From positions 1 through 64,000 of the forward strand of contig NZ_FXTB01000011.1 of assembly GCF_900182605.1 (NCBI RefSeq): 64,000 nucleotides of DNA, written 5' to 3'. The translations under genes were made by a program, and so were the position numbers. Each line of letters starts with the position of its first letter. Position 1 is the first letter of the stretch. Below, piece after piece: positions 47,409-53,266 of the stretch. The notes under the pieces were generated by a model. It was not told where the DNA came from, made no database searches, and saw nothing but the letters and a program-made list of their open reading frames with translations. Origin of the DNA: Saccharicrinis carchari. GTDB taxonomy: Bacteria > Bacteroidota > Bacteroidia > Bacteroidales > Marinilabiliaceae.

Positions 47409-49253
47409 TTATCCTTTCATACGTTGTTTCTCTACCATAATCCAAGCGGTATCTAATAGCAACATCAACTGCTCGGCATGAAACTTTGTGTAGGAGTTGT
47501 TTTGTGTAGCCAACCAAAATAGCGCCACCACCTTATTGTTTGCGATGACAGGCAGGGTGATTGATTTTAACAATTCGTCTTTGAGGTTTTCCGATTTTTG
47601 AAAGGGATAATATTGTGTTGGTTTATTTTCAATTACTGCCCTTCTGAGCTGTAAAGCCTTATTTAAGCAGTCCATGTTATCCACATGTTGGCTTTGGCTT
47701 GCATAAGGATGGGTGAGTTGTACATTTTGCGACCAATTGTTGAGATAAAACAATCCCTTTTCGATATCGCAATGATACACCGCTCCTAAATCGCTATTGG
47801 TAAATTCTATACTTTGCTTCAGGGTAAAATCAAGCAGATCGTTGATAGAAGAGGCCTTATAATGGATGATATTGTCGAGCCCCACTAATCGTTTGTTTAT
47901 CTGCTTTATCTTGTATTCTGCTTTTATGGCTTTAGTGGTATCTAAAGCAATAGAATGCAGAAACGCCTGGTTGTTTACCTTAATAAGGCTAGCAATAACA
48001 TTTACGTTGCGAATGTGCCCCGAAGCAAGACGATGCTCAAACCTAAAAACACTTTGCTCTTCCTGCTTGGCAAGTTTCATTTTGGCCGCTATCTCTTCAC
48101 GGCTTAACACATTGATTTGATCCATACTCATACCCAACAAGCTTTCTCTGCTGTATCCGTAAAACTTTACTGCGGTATCGTTAACATCTATAATTTCTGT
48201 TGTTTCCGGATCAACGATATACATAACGGCTTTACTCTTATCAAAAACTTTTTTAAATCGCTTCTCACTATCGGCTAAAGCCAGGGCAGTTTCTTTTTTA
48301 TCGCTTACATCCAGATAGGTGCCCATCATTCTTAGCGGCTTACCATCTTCATCCCACTCTACCACACTACCTTTTGAGTGTACCCAAACAAAATGGCCTT
48401 TTTTATGTTTTTGCCTACTTTCTACATCAAAATAATCCAATTCTTTAGCAAATACACGTTCCATTATTTCCTTCACTCTTACTTTATCTTCGGAGGCAAA
48501 AAAATCATAAACCATAGCTTCACTTATTGGCTCAAGCTCGTCGATGGTATAGCCCAGTATTTGCGCCCATCGTTCATTAACGAAAAACTCGTTGCTTTGA
48601 ATATTCCAGTCCCATGTACCAGCGTTTGTTCCTCTTAAAATACCCTCGGTCCGGTTTTTTTGTACCAGCAGAGCCGCTTTTGCTTTTTCACTTTCGGTAA
48701 TATCGTTATATACAACGGCAAAAAAGTTTAGTTGTGGCGAATAGGCGTGCAGCTCATAATATTTATCCAGTTTTTCCACATATTCCACATATTTTTTTAC
48801 TCCACCCGATAGCGCTACCTCGGCAAACATTTGTCGCCACTCATACGCACAATGCGCAAAAATTTCATTTCCTTTTTTATCTATGAGCTCATCGCGAGAG
48901 AGATTGTACAGTTGTAAAAGACGAGAATTGACATCCCGTATTATATAGTCTACAGGTTCCTTATCTTCGTTAAATACCAGCTCATATAATCCAAAGGCTT
49001 CGGGTAAGTTATTAAACAGACTCTTGTAAAGGTGTTGGCTTGTGATAACTTGTTTTTTTCTTATCATCCGATGGTCTGCTTCACTCTTGGGGCCAACACT
49101 GTGTGCGTTTAAAACACGCCGGCTGGCTTGCAATACTTTGTTTTTCTGTTTTATTTTCCCGCATAGCAAAGCGTACCTTTGTCTCTGTTTTCTTTTTGCT
49201 TTACGATATGCGCTGTTTTTAGAAATAGGCATAAATATTAATTCATTTTGCAT
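47409..49253 (-). CDS. PAS-PAS-PAS-GAF sensory protein without output domain
   Basis: A 614-residue cytoplasmic sensory protein. A strongly basic N-terminus (about 12-70) precedes three PAS domains (about 75-190, 200-320, 330-445) and one GAF domain (about 460-610). PAS2 shows the GTWDWNIQSNEFFVNERW start and a PAC-like end (GTYLDVSDKKE). After GAF, where a histidine kinase core or cyclase normally follows, the protein stops. A complete stop at 47409 and no frameshifted continuation suggest this is its true length. It overlaps the 3' end of the preceding regulator gene by 16 bases, so it is probably translationally coupled and may feed signals to the adjacent kinases. Confidence 0.8.
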   Translation of the reverse strand: MQNELIFMPISKNSAYRKAKRKQRQRYALLCGKIKQKNKVLQASRRVLNAHSVGPKSEADHRMIRKKQVITSQHLYKSLFNNLPEAFGLYELVFNEDKEPVDYIIRDVNSRLLQLYNLSRDELIDKKGNEIFAHCAYEWRQMFAEVALSGGVKKYVEYVEKLDKYYELHAYSPQLNFFAVVYNDITESEKAKAALLVQKNRTEGILRGTNAGTWDWNIQSNEFFVNERWAQILGYTIDELEPISEAMVYDFFASEDKVRVKEIMERVFAKELDYFDVESRQKHKKGHFVWVHSKGSVVEWDEDGKPLRMMGTYLDVSDKKETALALADSEKRFKKVFDKSKAVMYIVDPETTEIIDVNDTAVKFYGYSRESLLGMSMDQINVLSREEIAAKMKLAKQEEQSVFRFEHRLASGHIRNVNVIASLIKVNNQAFLHSIALDTTKAIKAEYKIKQINKRLVGLDNIIHYKASSINDLLDFTLKQSIEFTNSDLGAVYHCDIEKGLFYLNNWSQNVQLTHPYASQSQHVDNMDCLNKALQLRRAVIENKPTQYYPFQKSENLKDELLKSITLPVIANNKVVALFWLATQNNSYTKFHAEQLMLLLDTAWIMVEKQRMKG

Positions 49254-50407
49254 GGCAAATAAACCGTGGTTACGGTACCGGCATTTTCCGCCATATTTCC
49301 AAACTCTAAAGTTCCATTGTGCAATAGAATAATCATTCTGGCCAAATAAAGTTCCATGGCATTGTTGCGTTCAAAGGTATAGTTTTGATTGCTCACCGAC
49401 TTAAAAAAATGATTGAGCTCCTTCCCTTCGTAAGGACTTCCTGTGTCCACAATTTTTACTTTAATTTGTTTTTCCTCGCACGACACAATAACCTTTATAA
49501 ATCCTTTGCGGGTAAAAATCATTGAGCAATCGAGCAAGGCACACAGGGCATTTTGTATAAATTCCCGGTCGGCTTCGGCGATGGCTTCTATGCATTCCAT
49601 TGTAAAACGGCATTGTATATTTTTTGCCTTTACTTTTTCGGAAAATCCACTCACAATTGATTGTATCAAAGGCAGCATATCCAACCGTTCGAGCTTAAGC
49701 TGCGATATTCCCTTTAGCTGTAAATTAGATATTTGCAATGCCGCATAGGAATATTTCTCGAGATTAGAGACAGATGAGTCCAACAAGGTAACAATTTCCT
49801 GTATATGCTTATCGTGGGTATAAGTATTCAGCAAGTTAATAGATCCCATGATACCGTTTAAGGGCGTGCGCAGCTCATGACTTATGGAGTTCAGAAAATC
49901 ATTTTTGGCTACATCCAGCTGCTTAAGGTTCTCGTTGGCCTCTTTCAAACGCTGGTACGATTCGTTAAGTTCCTCCGTTTTTTTTTCCACCTCGGAAGAT
50001 AACCAACCATTAAGGTCGAGGATTTTTTCTCTGGATTTTTTAAGTTCAATATGGGTAGATAAACGAGCTAAAAGTTCCTTCTGGTTAAATGGCTTAGTAA
50101 TAAAATCAACCCCACCCCGCTCAAAGCCCTCGGTAACACTTTCTACATCGGTTCGGGCTGTTAAAAAGATAACCGGTATATCGGCGTGGCGAGCATCTTT
50201 TTTAATTGTCTCGCAAGTTTCGAACCCGTTTATTTCGGGCATCATAACATCCATTAATATGGCATCAAAAGTAGCCACTTGCAGCCATTTAATGGCACTT
50301 TTTCCGTTAAGTGCCACCTCTACGGAATAGTTATTTTCGGCCAATAGTGCAGCCAGTACCTGTAAATTTTTTGGATTGTCGTCAACAATCAATATTTTGT
50401 TGTTCAT
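49238..50407 (-). CDS. Response regulator fused to degenerate histidine kinase
   Basis: A 389-residue protein. The N-terminal receiver domain (1-120) is intact: acidic pair D9-D10, phospho-acceptor D53 and K105. A coiled-coil (about 122-168) leads into a dimerisation/phosphotransfer domain with H177 (ISHELRTP). The following ATP-binding half is eroded: the N-box Asn is C294 (LLDCSMIFT), the G1 box DxGxG reads DTGSP (321-325), and the G2 GxGLGL is replaced by NNAMELYLA. ATP binding and autophosphorylation are therefore unlikely. It might act as a phosphotransfer protein or phosphatase for its neighbour. It starts 16 bases after the hybrid kinase stop. Confidence 0.85.
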   Translation of the reverse strand: MNNKILIVDDNPKNLQVLAALLAENNYSVEVALNGKSAIKWLQVATFDAILMDVMMPEINGFETCETIKKDARHADIPVIFLTARTDVESVTEGFERGGVDFITKPFNQKELLARLSTHIELKKSREKILDLNGWLSSEVEKKTEELNESYQRLKEANENLKQLDVAKNDFLNSISHELRTPLNGIMGSINLLNTYTHDKHIQEIVTLLDSSVSNLEKYSYAALQISNLQLKGISQLKLERLDMLPLIQSIVSGFSEKVKAKNIQCRFTMECIEAIAEADREFIQNALCALLDCSMIFTRKGFIKVIVSCEEKQIKVKIVDTGSPYEGKELNHFFKSVSNQNYTFERNNAMELYLARMIILLHNGTLEFGNMAENAGTVTTVYLPCKMN

Positions 50408-50423
50408 TGTATTTTGCCGCTAA

Positions 50424-53132
50424 TTAGGATTCAACTTCAGCGTTTAATTTGTCGCTTAGTTTGTCAATAAAGAGATGGAAGTTACGGATCATTTTCTGAA
50501 TAGTTTCAAAATCAAAGGATTGGATGGCAGCCTCCAATTCTTGCTTATACTCCTCTAAGGGTGACCATGGTATCTGCTGCGTCGCCTTATCTATCTGAGA
50601 TATAAACATATTTAATTTTTCTGAAGATAATATCTCATGTAAACTATCGCATAAGGGTACTACCGAAGTTTCTAATTGCTGCTTTAACTTACGCCTGTCT
50701 GTCTTGTTCAAACTAAATTCCTCATCTGTTATTTGCACACGTGCTTTATCCTGCTTTTGCTGTGGGCTTATAAATTTTGCTATCTCATTGACGAGATCCT
50801 GTTGGGTAATGGGCTTAGATATAAATCCATCGAACCCTGCTTCCTTTATTTTAAGTAACTCCTTAACATCACTGGATGAAGAGGTAGCTATAACGGGGAT
50901 ATATTTCGTTTTCTCGTTTGCTTTTATTTTATTAAAATATTTGTATCGGTTAATTTTAGGCATGCGAATGTCCATAATGATTAAAGCGGGGTTAACCTCC
51001 TGTACTATTTCAATCATTTGTTTTCCGTAAATACAAGATGTACAACTTAATTTCAGATTTTGCCCCTGAGCGCACAGCACATCCAGATTGGTTTGCACAC
51101 TATCCACAATCATCACCCTCTCCCCGTTAAAAACCACATTGTTGCTTTGCTTATCCTCCAGCTCACAAAACAGATCGTTGGTCGCCTCCACATCGGGTAT
51201 TGATATAGAAAAAGTACTTCCTGTATTTACTTCACTCTCCATGGTTATAACACCGCCCATCATACGCACCAATTTTTGAACAATGGACAAACCCAAGCCT
51301 GTTCCCTGCTGATCTTTTTCGTTGGGGCTTTTATCCTGAACAAAAGGATCAAATATATATCGCTGTTTGTTTTTAGCTATCCCCACACCGGTATCCGATA
51401 CTTTAATCAATAGCTTTCCTTTATCCCGGGTATCACTAAAAGTAAATGCACAAGTAACACTCACTTGCCCCTGCTTTGTAAATTTTAGGGCATTACTGAT
51501 TAGGTTGAGCAATATTTGGTTCATTTTTAAAGGATCTATAAAAATAAACTTAGGGAAATCTTTTTGCGGACGTACCACGAATTCAATTTGTTTTTCGGTA
51601 AATGCCAACGAAAAAGTTTGTTCAATCTCCTTAAGCAGGGATATGAAGTCCGTATTTTCCTTTCGTATTACCATGTGACCCGCCTCAATCTTTTCTAAAT
51701 CCAGCAAATCACTTATCAAGGCCAGCAATACCTTGCCACTGGTTTTAATTGAATTAAGGTAACCATTAAAAGGCGGCTCTTGCATGTGCTTACTCAGCAG
51801 TTCGGAAAAACCTATGATCGCATTCATGGGGGTGCGGATTTCATGCGACATATTGGCCAGAAACATTGATTTTGCCTCATTTGCTTGTATGCTTTTATTG
51901 CGTTCTACCAGCAATGCGTTCATCAGCGCCTTGGTTTCCGAAATATCACTTAAAACACCTGTTATAACGCTTACACCATTACAATCCGTAATCAGCTGTC
52001 CTCCAAAGCGCAGCCACACATAGGTGTTGCTTGTATTTAAAAGGCGGAACTCCATGGTCAATTTCTTATCCTGAGATTTTGCAGCATAAGCCATTGATTC
52101 GCGTATATATTCCAGGTCGTGGGTATGTATACGTGTTTTAATCCAATCCAATTCTAACTTTCCCTTGTCTAAAACATAGCCGGTTATATCTGTAAATATT
52201 TTATTGGTCAGCAGGGTTTGTGAACGAAAATTATACTCAACGTAAGCAATATTGCCAGATTCCATGCTAAACTCCAGCCTATCCTTGAGCTCGGCCAGCT
52301 CATGTTCGCTTGAAACACGATCCGTTACGTCCATCCTCACTTCGGCCATATGCCAAACATTGGGTTTATACTCATACGGAAAGGCAACCACTTGAATGGT
52401 TTTGTCTTTGTTTCGATACCTGAAGGTAGACTTTGTTTTAATCACCTTTTTTCGGGGACATTGAGCGCACAAGGTATTGTTGTCGGCAAAATGATGGTAA
52501 CATTTATCGTGAATGTTGTTAATATCCTCATGGCTGTGAAAAATAATATCGCCATGCTCATTGCTGATAGATAACACGGTATTGGTAGCCATCAAAATAT
52601 TGTGCAGCTGTTTGTTCAGTATGGTTTGCCCATTTTTGCAGCTCTTGAGCGCAGAAAAATAATGCATAAACCCATTCAACTCTTCAGTATCCTGGTTTTG
52701 TTGGCCTGCATTATGTGCTCTCTTCAGCTCGTGGAGAGCCACCTGATCGCCTACTGTTTTGCAAAATACCGATACTGTACTACTTACCTCATCCAATACA
52801 AAACCGCTGTCAAAAAACAGTACAATGGCACCCCAGGTTTTACGGTTTCCGGGCACAACAGGTGCTATATATTGTGTTAGCTGTTTCCCATTGCCAATAA
52901 TATTTGGCTCATTAAATCCTTCGTCCAGACCAAAAAACTTACTGCTTATTACTTTATCCAGTCCGTAAGGATGATTATTTTCCTTTGTAGAAGCCAAAAT
53001 ACGCAGGCTTGGCCCCATACTTTTAGACAAAAAAACAAGCGATGCTCCCGTTAATTTTTGTAGCATTAACATTTGCTGGTTCCAGCTAACTGTAAGGCTA
53101 ATGTGTGCTGATGTTCTTATCGTTCCCGGCAT
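50424..53132 (-). CDS. Hybrid sensor histidine kinase
   Basis: A 902-residue soluble hybrid kinase. Order: GAF-like domain (about 20-135), PAS with a cysteine cluster C211, C222, C225 (about 165-275), PAS (about 285-400), HisKA with H430 (MSHEIRTP), HATPase with N547, D580 (DTGVGI) and GTGLGL (610-615), then a receiver (about 670-790) with D721 and K773 but with S678 in place of the second acidic residue. The last ~95 residues are helical like an Hpt domain but lack a histidine in an AHxLKG context. No membrane segment is seen, so the signal is cytoplasmic. First gene of a three-gene signalling unit. Confidence 0.9.
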   Translation of the reverse strand: MPGTIRTSAHISLTVSWNQQMLMLQKLTGASLVFLSKSMGPSLRILASTKENNHPYGLDKVISSKFFGLDEGFNEPNIIGNGKQLTQYIAPVVPGNRKTWGAIVLFFDSGFVLDEVSSTVSVFCKTVGDQVALHELKRAHNAGQQNQDTEELNGFMHYFSALKSCKNGQTILNKQLHNILMATNTVLSISNEHGDIIFHSHEDINNIHDKCYHHFADNNTLCAQCPRKKVIKTKSTFRYRNKDKTIQVVAFPYEYKPNVWHMAEVRMDVTDRVSSEHELAELKDRLEFSMESGNIAYVEYNFRSQTLLTNKIFTDITGYVLDKGKLELDWIKTRIHTHDLEYIRESMAYAAKSQDKKLTMEFRLLNTSNTYVWLRFGGQLITDCNGVSVITGVLSDISETKALMNALLVERNKSIQANEAKSMFLANMSHEIRTPMNAIIGFSELLSKHMQEPPFNGYLNSIKTSGKVLLALISDLLDLEKIEAGHMVIRKENTDFISLLKEIEQTFSLAFTEKQIEFVVRPQKDFPKFIFIDPLKMNQILLNLISNALKFTKQGQVSVTCAFTFSDTRDKGKLLIKVSDTGVGIAKNKQRYIFDPFVQDKSPNEKDQQGTGLGLSIVQKLVRMMGGVITMESEVNTGSTFSISIPDVEATNDLFCELEDKQSNNVVFNGERVMIVDSVQTNLDVLCAQGQNLKLSCTSCIYGKQMIEIVQEVNPALIIMDIRMPKINRYKYFNKIKANEKTKYIPVIATSSSSDVKELLKIKEAGFDGFISKPITQQDLVNEIAKFISPQQKQDKARVQITDEEFSLNKTDRRKLKQQLETSVVPLCDSLHEILSSEKLNMFISQIDKATQQIPWSPLEEYKQELEAAIQSFDFETIQKMIRNFHLFIDKLSDKLNAEVES

Positions 53133-53266
53133 ATGCTAATTACTCCACACCATAGTTAGTACCTAAAAAATAATTGATTCTAAATTGTTAATGTGATACG
53201 GAACTTTGCCGAAAATTGTTTCCTTTTTTTATATATTTCGATTTCTAATTTTTATAGCCTTCCAAT

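Follow-up and report, generated by a model that had tools for sequence, protein, structure and literature searches.

A conserved two-component gene row in Saccharicrinis carchari, probably the half that remains of a once larger phosphorelay locus with chemosensory links

Among the signalling systems described to date, the LvrA/LvrB pair of Leptospira is among those closest to the locus reported here, in that a hybrid histidine kinase is encoded next to a protein consisting of a receiver, a DHp domain and a CA domain (Rec-DHp-CA), without a DNA-binding domain (PMC5863495, PMC13269768). LvrA is reported to phosphorylate LvrB on Asp56, to favour its own receiver over LvrB (PMC5863495), and to have a second DHp-CA part behind its receiver, while LvrB is described as having an active CA domain and being autophosphorylated on H161. 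The mechanism of such Rec-controlled kinases has been explained only recently, for LvrB. A second group of interest comprises PhyT of Sphingomonas, ChpT and Spo0B, which are described as resembling histidine kinases but having a degenerate ATPase domain, the DHp His being conserved; PhyT, according to the same account, carries phosphate through its His from a single-domain receiver, the separate protein SdrG, to a regulator (PMC5898713). Finally, the Che3 cascade of Rhodospirillum centenum (CheA3, CheS3, CheY3), in which CheA3 phosphorylates a receiver of CheS3, is presented as combining a chemosensory system and a hybrid kinase with a non-chemotactic output (PMC3868531). Among the titles and abstract openings listed in a literature search, with subscription papers mostly outside its reach, we found no published account of the gene row described below, nor of Rec-controlled kinases with a dead CA domain as a family. 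We regard the row as a real conserved module with a well-supported deletion history, built on the theme of the Rec-controlled kinase and the DHp phosphotransferase, with a mechanism that we infer.

The window analysed is a stretch of 64,000 nucleotides of S. carchari, on contig C11 of a 4.64 Mb genome (31 contigs, 99.97% complete; labelled G000). Three genes on its minus strand encode a hybrid histidine kinase (HK, 50424..53132, 902 aa, without a membrane segment by hydropathy), a receiver-DHp protein with an apparently dead CA domain (MID, 49238..50407, 389 aa) and a PAS/GAF protein in which Pfam finds no output domain (P3, 47409..49253, 614 aa). Housekeeping genes flank the three, namely ilvC at one end and, at the other, genes for an S9 peptidase, mutL and rhomboid genes. 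An initial annotation of the window had joined the three genes into a single signalling module, and its open reading frames, strand, coordinates, 16-base HK-MID gap and 16-base MID-P3 overlap were exact when the reading frames were checked, as were its residue numbers H430, D721, D53 and H177. The spacings themselves are not conserved, ranging across nine genomes from -1 to 116 bases for HK-MID and from -16 to 110 bases for MID-P3; by reading, P3 also has an in-frame ATG at codon 8, and a start there would give a 5-base gap in place of the overlap. Promoter and terminator scans of the locus gave no excess over shuffled sequence.

HK has the features of an active hybrid kinase, as the initial annotation had it. 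Pfam assigns PAS_3 (51963..52205, minus strand, PF08447), HisKA (51678..51875, minus strand, PF00512), HATPase_c (93.5 bits) and Response_reg. The HisKA/DHp domain, with a mean pairwise identity of 67.5% over 12 orthologues, holds H430, and the ATP-binding domain (51192..51536, minus strand) retains apparently intact N, G1 and G2 boxes, namely N547, D580-T-G-V-G584 and G610-T-G-L-G614. A PAS-like region (52458..52502, minus strand) carries C211, C222 and C225, conserved at 90% or more in 11 HK orthologues (alignment A3), which may form a metal or redox site; in another alignment, this C-x10-C-x2-C-P motif is missing from G023 and G009, neither of which is in A3. At its C-terminus HK ends in a helical bundle (50433..50705, minus strand; AF2 pLDDT 83). 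We rejected this bundle as a candidate HPt domain, given that it has no conserved His in an alignment of 13 sequences (A2) and that its Foldseek matches, HPt domains among them, were all non-significant.

The receiver of HK (50781..51116, minus strand) is another matter. A 2025 perspective defines a pseudo-receiver as a receiver without any one of five active-site residues, and states that the second acidic residue is non-acidic in about 80% of pseudo-receivers (PMC12632262). The corresponding residues of HK are D677, S678, D721, S751 and K773, with S678 replacing the second acidic residue, and by that definition the domain is a pseudo-receiver in sequence. Its mean pairwise identity over 12 orthologues is only 31%, and its decay is uneven. 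Among 13 orthologues, the acidic pair is broken by loss of the second acid in 9 and complete in 4, and in G023 and G009 the first acid and the Ser/Thr are missing as well; the phospho-acceptor D and the Lys are kept in all 13. Unlike the pseudo-receivers described in the hybrid kinases ShkA and CikA (PMC12632262), that of the window's HK keeps its D, Ser and Lys, and it is possible that it still functions in part. A phosphate route through D721 is nevertheless doubtful for a receiver that reads D677-S678 instead of D-D.

In MID the pattern is reversed, with an intact receiver in front of a degenerate kinase core. Pfam reports Response_reg (108 bits), HisKA (39 bits) and a weak HATPase_c (31.5 bits, against a cut-off of 26.4). 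The receiver (50060..50395, minus strand) is canonical, and D9, D10, D53, T83 and K105 are invariant in 12 of 12 aligned orthologues; since the HK receiver is degenerate, it is therefore MID that contributes the intact and conserved receiver of the set. The HisKA/DHp domain (49727..49909, minus strand) shows the same constancy, with H177-E-x-x-T181 unchanged in all 12. In the ATP-binding domain (49250..49570, minus strand), C294 stands in place of the catalytic Asn, D321-T-G-S-P in place of D-x-G-x-G, and NNAMELYL in place of the G2 box. The N-box Asn, the second G1 Gly and the G2 box are missing from every one of the 12 aligned orthologues, all of which retain D321 and G323 of the G1 box. These losses fit the earlier description of a kinase core unable to bind ATP, and we hold it very probable that the CA domain is dead. 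Mean pairwise identity over 12 orthologues is 66% for the MID receiver, 67% for its DHp and 41% for its CA, and 47% for the CA of HK; the HK receiver residues given above were compared in 13, and G006, whose MID gene is split over two contigs, is outside the MID alignments (G006 belongs to the same genus group as the window; its contig C187, of 19241 bases, matches MID at 83% identity).

An AF2 model of MID built from 12 sequences (mean pLDDT 80, pTM 0.50) contains the receiver, one helix spanning residues 109-193 and holding H177, a second DHp helix and a CA fold; confidence is lower in the DHp helices (pLDDT 58-72 in places, including around the His) and falls under 50 in the ATP-lid region, 336-347. 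In a Foldseek search of this model against the PDB, LvrB ranked first over the whole length (E 1.4e-17, 17% identity, with a TM-score of only 0.32), ahead of HK853 and RetS, with GacS, DivL and other kinases lower down; ChpT and Spo0B were not among the best 50 of 1681 matches. LvrA is one of many NCBIfam kinase families reported for HK and MID, far under the cut-off. Judged against a Rec-controlled kinase of the LvrB type, MID has the intact N-terminal receiver and the signalling helix leading into the DHp His, and its motifs indicate that it lacks the functional ATP-binding domain; its conserved DHp His next to a degenerate CA is, in sequence, the combination that marks a DHp phosphotransferase. 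MID thus differs from LvrB, as described, in its apparently dead CA, and from PhyT in carrying its own canonical receiver in front, whereas HK differs from LvrA in having no second DHp-CA part.

To place the locus in an evolutionary setting, we searched 71 genomes of the family for MID, K1 and RR (the last two are introduced below), searches in which, for many genomes, only part of the first-look candidates was scored. At E of at most 1e-100, MID orthologues were found in 15 of the 71, and 2 more genomes gave weaker matches at 1e-75; in a MID search of genome contigs, 60 of the 80 loci listed match no further than residue 219. HK adjoins MID in all 15 genomes, the window's included. Synteny in relatives, which had been suggested as a check on the single module, therefore bears out HK-MID, but P3 is less constant, with several insertions or poorer matches. 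A P3-like gene comes next in 12 of 14 judgeable genomes; G023 and G009 have no match, and G063 stops at a contig edge. G006 and G018 carry an inserted kinase gene, and in G019 and G068 the P3 matches are poorer. The extra gene of G006 (L111:682-1746), between MID and P3, encodes a 354-aa HisKA/HATPase kinase, perhaps membrane-bound.

On the other side of HK, most relatives have two further signalling genes. RR, a LuxR-type regulator of 215 aa (receiver-GerE), and K1, of about 480 aa (receiver, a PAS-like stretch seen by eye, HisKA_3 and HATPase_c), precede HK in 11 of the 15 MID genomes. K1 (E at most 1e-80) occurs in 11 of the 71 genomes, all of them among the 15 with MID (hypergeometric 5e-10, with shared ancestry uncorrected). 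RR occurs in 12, of which 11 are MID genomes; the remaining one, G016, has an RR-like gene and neither K1 nor MID at the cut-offs. The ATP site of K1 looks intact, and its receiver, by eye, is without the second acid in 7 of 9. Next to these genes, in turn, lie chemosensory genes that include a second CheA and adjoin the row in 9 of the 11 K1 genomes. As for the other two, in G009 no CheA adjoins the row (its best match, at 41%, lies elsewhere), and in G018 the contig ends there and a CheA of the row type is on another contig. CheW, MCP or CheA stand near the row in most RR/K1 genomes, and all three are divergent from K1 in G003, G005, G008 and G063. The row-type CheA (54-70% identity to that of G005) is found in 10 of 16 genomes tested; in G000, G001, G002, G004 and G006 the sole CheA is of the other kind (34-36%), apart from a partial 40% match in G002.

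In the window, no CheA stands beside the row, and RR and K1 are absent too. The gene order is P3-MID-HK-RR-K1 / CheW-MCP-CheA-o126 / S9-mutL in G005, P3-MID-HK / o126 / S9-mutL in G004, and P3-MID-HK / S9-mutL in the window; G006 has the window's order across two contigs, and G002 has it without S9 too. Accordingly, HK and o126 are 7.3 kb apart in G005 and 270 bases apart in G004, and in the window only 134 bases (53133..53266) separate HK from the S9 peptidase gene, where G005 has RR, K1, CheW, MCP, CheA and o126. The product of o126 (L150:2855-3235, L102:13015-13386) is about 126 aa long and has no Pfam match; its gene adjoins CheA in several relatives. In the MID tree, the window, G002 and G004 form one clade (100/99) inside the genomes that have the RR/K1/chemosensory block, and because this clade is nested among genomes that keep the block, a single loss is the simplest account. 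By that account RR, K1 and the chemosensory genes disappeared together, as one contiguous block. We are highly confident of the conserved gene row and of its loss in the window's clade. Relocation of K1 or RR within the genome was considered and rejected, with no K1 match at 1e-40 and a best RR match only 39% identical. Remnants of the lost genes at the junction were likewise sought, and tblastn gave only chance-level matches at the junctions of the window, G002 and G006; o126 was found in G004.

The best explanation of these data is that a larger phosphorelay locus, linked to chemosensory genes, once existed here and that the three genes of the window are the half of it that survives. The initial annotation had placed the target of the module outside the window and thereby missed a LuxR-type regulator that is encoded in the same row in 11 of 15 genomes and was deleted in the window's lineage. 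The locus recalls Che3 in description only: where Che3 has CheA3, CheS3 and CheY3, it comprises K1, a LuxR-type RR, HK and MID, and the window's clade no longer has the chemosensory part. Compared with relatives in which the block persists, the deletion amounts to a natural experiment on the HK-MID core alone.

In P3, Pfam recognizes PAS domains and a C-terminal GAF_2 domain (47430..47852, minus strand, PF13185) and no kinase or output domain, in keeping with its earlier description as a sensor without output. In G004, G005, G007 and G008, P3 has a membrane segment and, in front, an ABC_sub_bind domain; the segment is also kept in G003 and in G002 and G006, the nearest relatives of the window's P3, which has neither. 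A frameshift does not account for the missing segment, as both other frames contain stops. That P3 might be a truncated kinase was also rejected, with HisKA or HATPase_c found in none of the eight P3 proteins scanned (window, G002, G003, G004, G005, G007, G008 and G033). Among the P3-like proteins of G019, one of 1538 aa, a poorer match, carries a kinase.

We then considered when the CA domain of MID was lost. MID served as the query for collecting the loci of a tree, which biases the sample in favour of MID relatives. Considering reading frames of 300-480 aa away from contig ends, with 12 short duplicate loci skipped and identical proteins collapsed, the MID profile matched 62, of which the 44 with near-full coverage were kept for the tree and motif table (G006, with its split gene, was left out). 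In 42 of the 44 the receiver is in front; the other two (L041:6044-7381, L118:9053-10486) have the layout of ordinary kinases, in which the receiver comes behind, keep the Asn and have the longest branches. Fifteen rows, 14 of them MID orthologues and the other an additional G007 gene, have lost the Asn and kept the His, and these form one clade (100/99) with no His-less row inside it. Six rows with neither residue form a separate clade (100/99), and 23 rows keep the Asn. The simplest reading, from a biased sample with several long branches, places the loss of the CA ahead of the radiation of the MID clade, with the His retained ever since. Because the six rows of the other clade have lost the His, part of the MID-like family presumably works without phosphotransfer. 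A clade of dead kinases with an invariant receiver and DHp His separates the two roles of this architecture, relay or switch on one hand and kinase on the other.

We propose that HK, as its intact motifs suggest, autophosphorylates on H430 and that the phosphoryl group would go chiefly to D53 of MID, because the receiver of HK is degenerate and D53 lies in the only intact receiver of the set. We consider this transfer fairly probable, bearing in mind that the adjacent protein is not necessarily the preferred partner of a hybrid kinase, given the reported preference of LvrA for its own receiver (PMC5863495). MID would be a former Rec-controlled histidine kinase, with the receiver, signalling helix, DHp and CA of LvrB, in which the CA has died. 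As the ATP-site motifs are lost and H177 is invariant, MID probably does not phosphorylate itself, and H177 is most likely a docking and phosphotransfer site. H177 might then pass phosphate between D53 or HK and a downstream receiver, as in PhyT and ChpT, a relay role that we advance tentatively. The genome contains 63 receiver matches, 66 HATPase_c matches (including non-kinases such as MutL) and 2 HPt matches over the cut-off, one of these in a 685-aa CheA frame. With so few HPt domains and no conserved His in the C-terminal bundle of HK, there would be a gap for a DHp-type phosphotransferase to fill, provided that the genome does not hold HPt proteins too divergent for the HPt model. Most hybrid kinases of this genome are without an obvious HPt partner. 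P3 may add sensory input by touching HK or MID. Gene order suggests that in relatives the natural downstream partner is RR, with K1, in the same row; in the window's clade, because the RR/K1/chemosensory block is absent, the relay would now serve a receiver elsewhere or act by protein contact. The model as a whole, in which H430 of HK feeds D53 of MID and MID acts through the H177 bundle either as a phosphotransferase like PhyT and ChpT or as a switch, is plausible, and we hold it with reservation. A more ambitious version, which we think unlikely to hold in all its parts, sees MID as combining receiver and histidine phosphotransferase in a single chain (a Rec-controlled kinase with its ATP site killed, in effect Spo0F and Spo0B fused). 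In this version MID took over from the decaying receiver of its partner kinase and formerly connected both a chemosensory array and a hybrid kinase with a LuxR-type regulator; it would then have been rewired to a new target after the array, the regulator and the regulator's kinase were deleted.

The E-x-x-T beside H177 would suit a phosphatase equally well, which counts against the relay reading. MID could be a receiver-gated phosphatase or docking switch, in which phosphorylation of D53 reshapes the DHp so that it binds or dephosphorylates a downstream receiver, with H177 carrying no phosphate forward. H-E-x-x-T is of the type used by HisKA phosphatases, and it is invariant in 12 of 12 MID orthologues. 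Some MID-like proteins survive with N or R in place of the His, and coupling between receiver and DHp is described for LvrB (PMC13269768). The invariance of the His itself among MID orthologues is harder to accommodate. A phosphatase is not expected to need a DHp His, and we judge this alternative unlikely, if still one to be taken seriously. MID might, alternatively, serve as a pseudokinase subunit whose DHp pairs with that of HK (or K1 in relatives) and changes the activity of that kinase. RetS acts in this manner on GacS. DivL is described as acting on CckA in pseudokinase fashion (PMC12189002). Consistent with such a role, the DHp of MID is as conserved as that of HK (67% vs 67.5%), the best structural matches of the MID model include RetS, GacS and DivL, and HK and MID are adjacent in 15 of 15 genomes; however, a subunit of this kind has no need for an invariant His and a canonical receiver together, and we find the proposal distinctly unlikely.

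That MID keeps a weak kinase activity, or that the CA of HK phosphorylates H177 in trans, gains something from the Pfam HATPase_c match to MID, which is still over the cut-off, and from the invariant D321 and G323 of the G1 box, yet none of the 12 aligned orthologues has the N-box Asn, the second G1 Gly or the G2 box, and we view it as very improbable. The disappearance of RR, K1, CheW, MCP and CheA and of the membrane segment of P3 could also suggest that the three genes are a functionless relic, decaying since the regulator was lost. This is hardly credible, as all three reading frames are intact in the window, G002 and G004 (the MID of G006 is split by contig ends) and all dN/dS values that could be computed, whatever the domain or pair, are under 0.4. 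Between the window and G002, dN/dS is 0.03 for the MID receiver, 0.05 for its DHp and 0.11 for its CA (rough values, with dS near saturation), and 0.185 for the HK receiver and about 0.1 for P3 domains (again rough, with dS high or saturated). These rough estimates indicate that the three genes are under purifying selection and are not decaying as a whole.

The tree yielded two further observations. The clade of Rec-DHp-CA proteins without the His and the ATP site includes L114:9218-10384, L115:9376-10542, L117:8662-9825, L119:8344-9447 and L120:5783-6874, and the gene at L119 adjoins those for a 1448-aa PKD/CHU_C protein (type IX secretion signal) and a 298-aa protein without a Pfam match. 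The MID of G063 (L132, G063:C101), a genome assigned to another genus, nests inside the window's genus (100/98), and the row in G063 may have been acquired by horizontal transfer.
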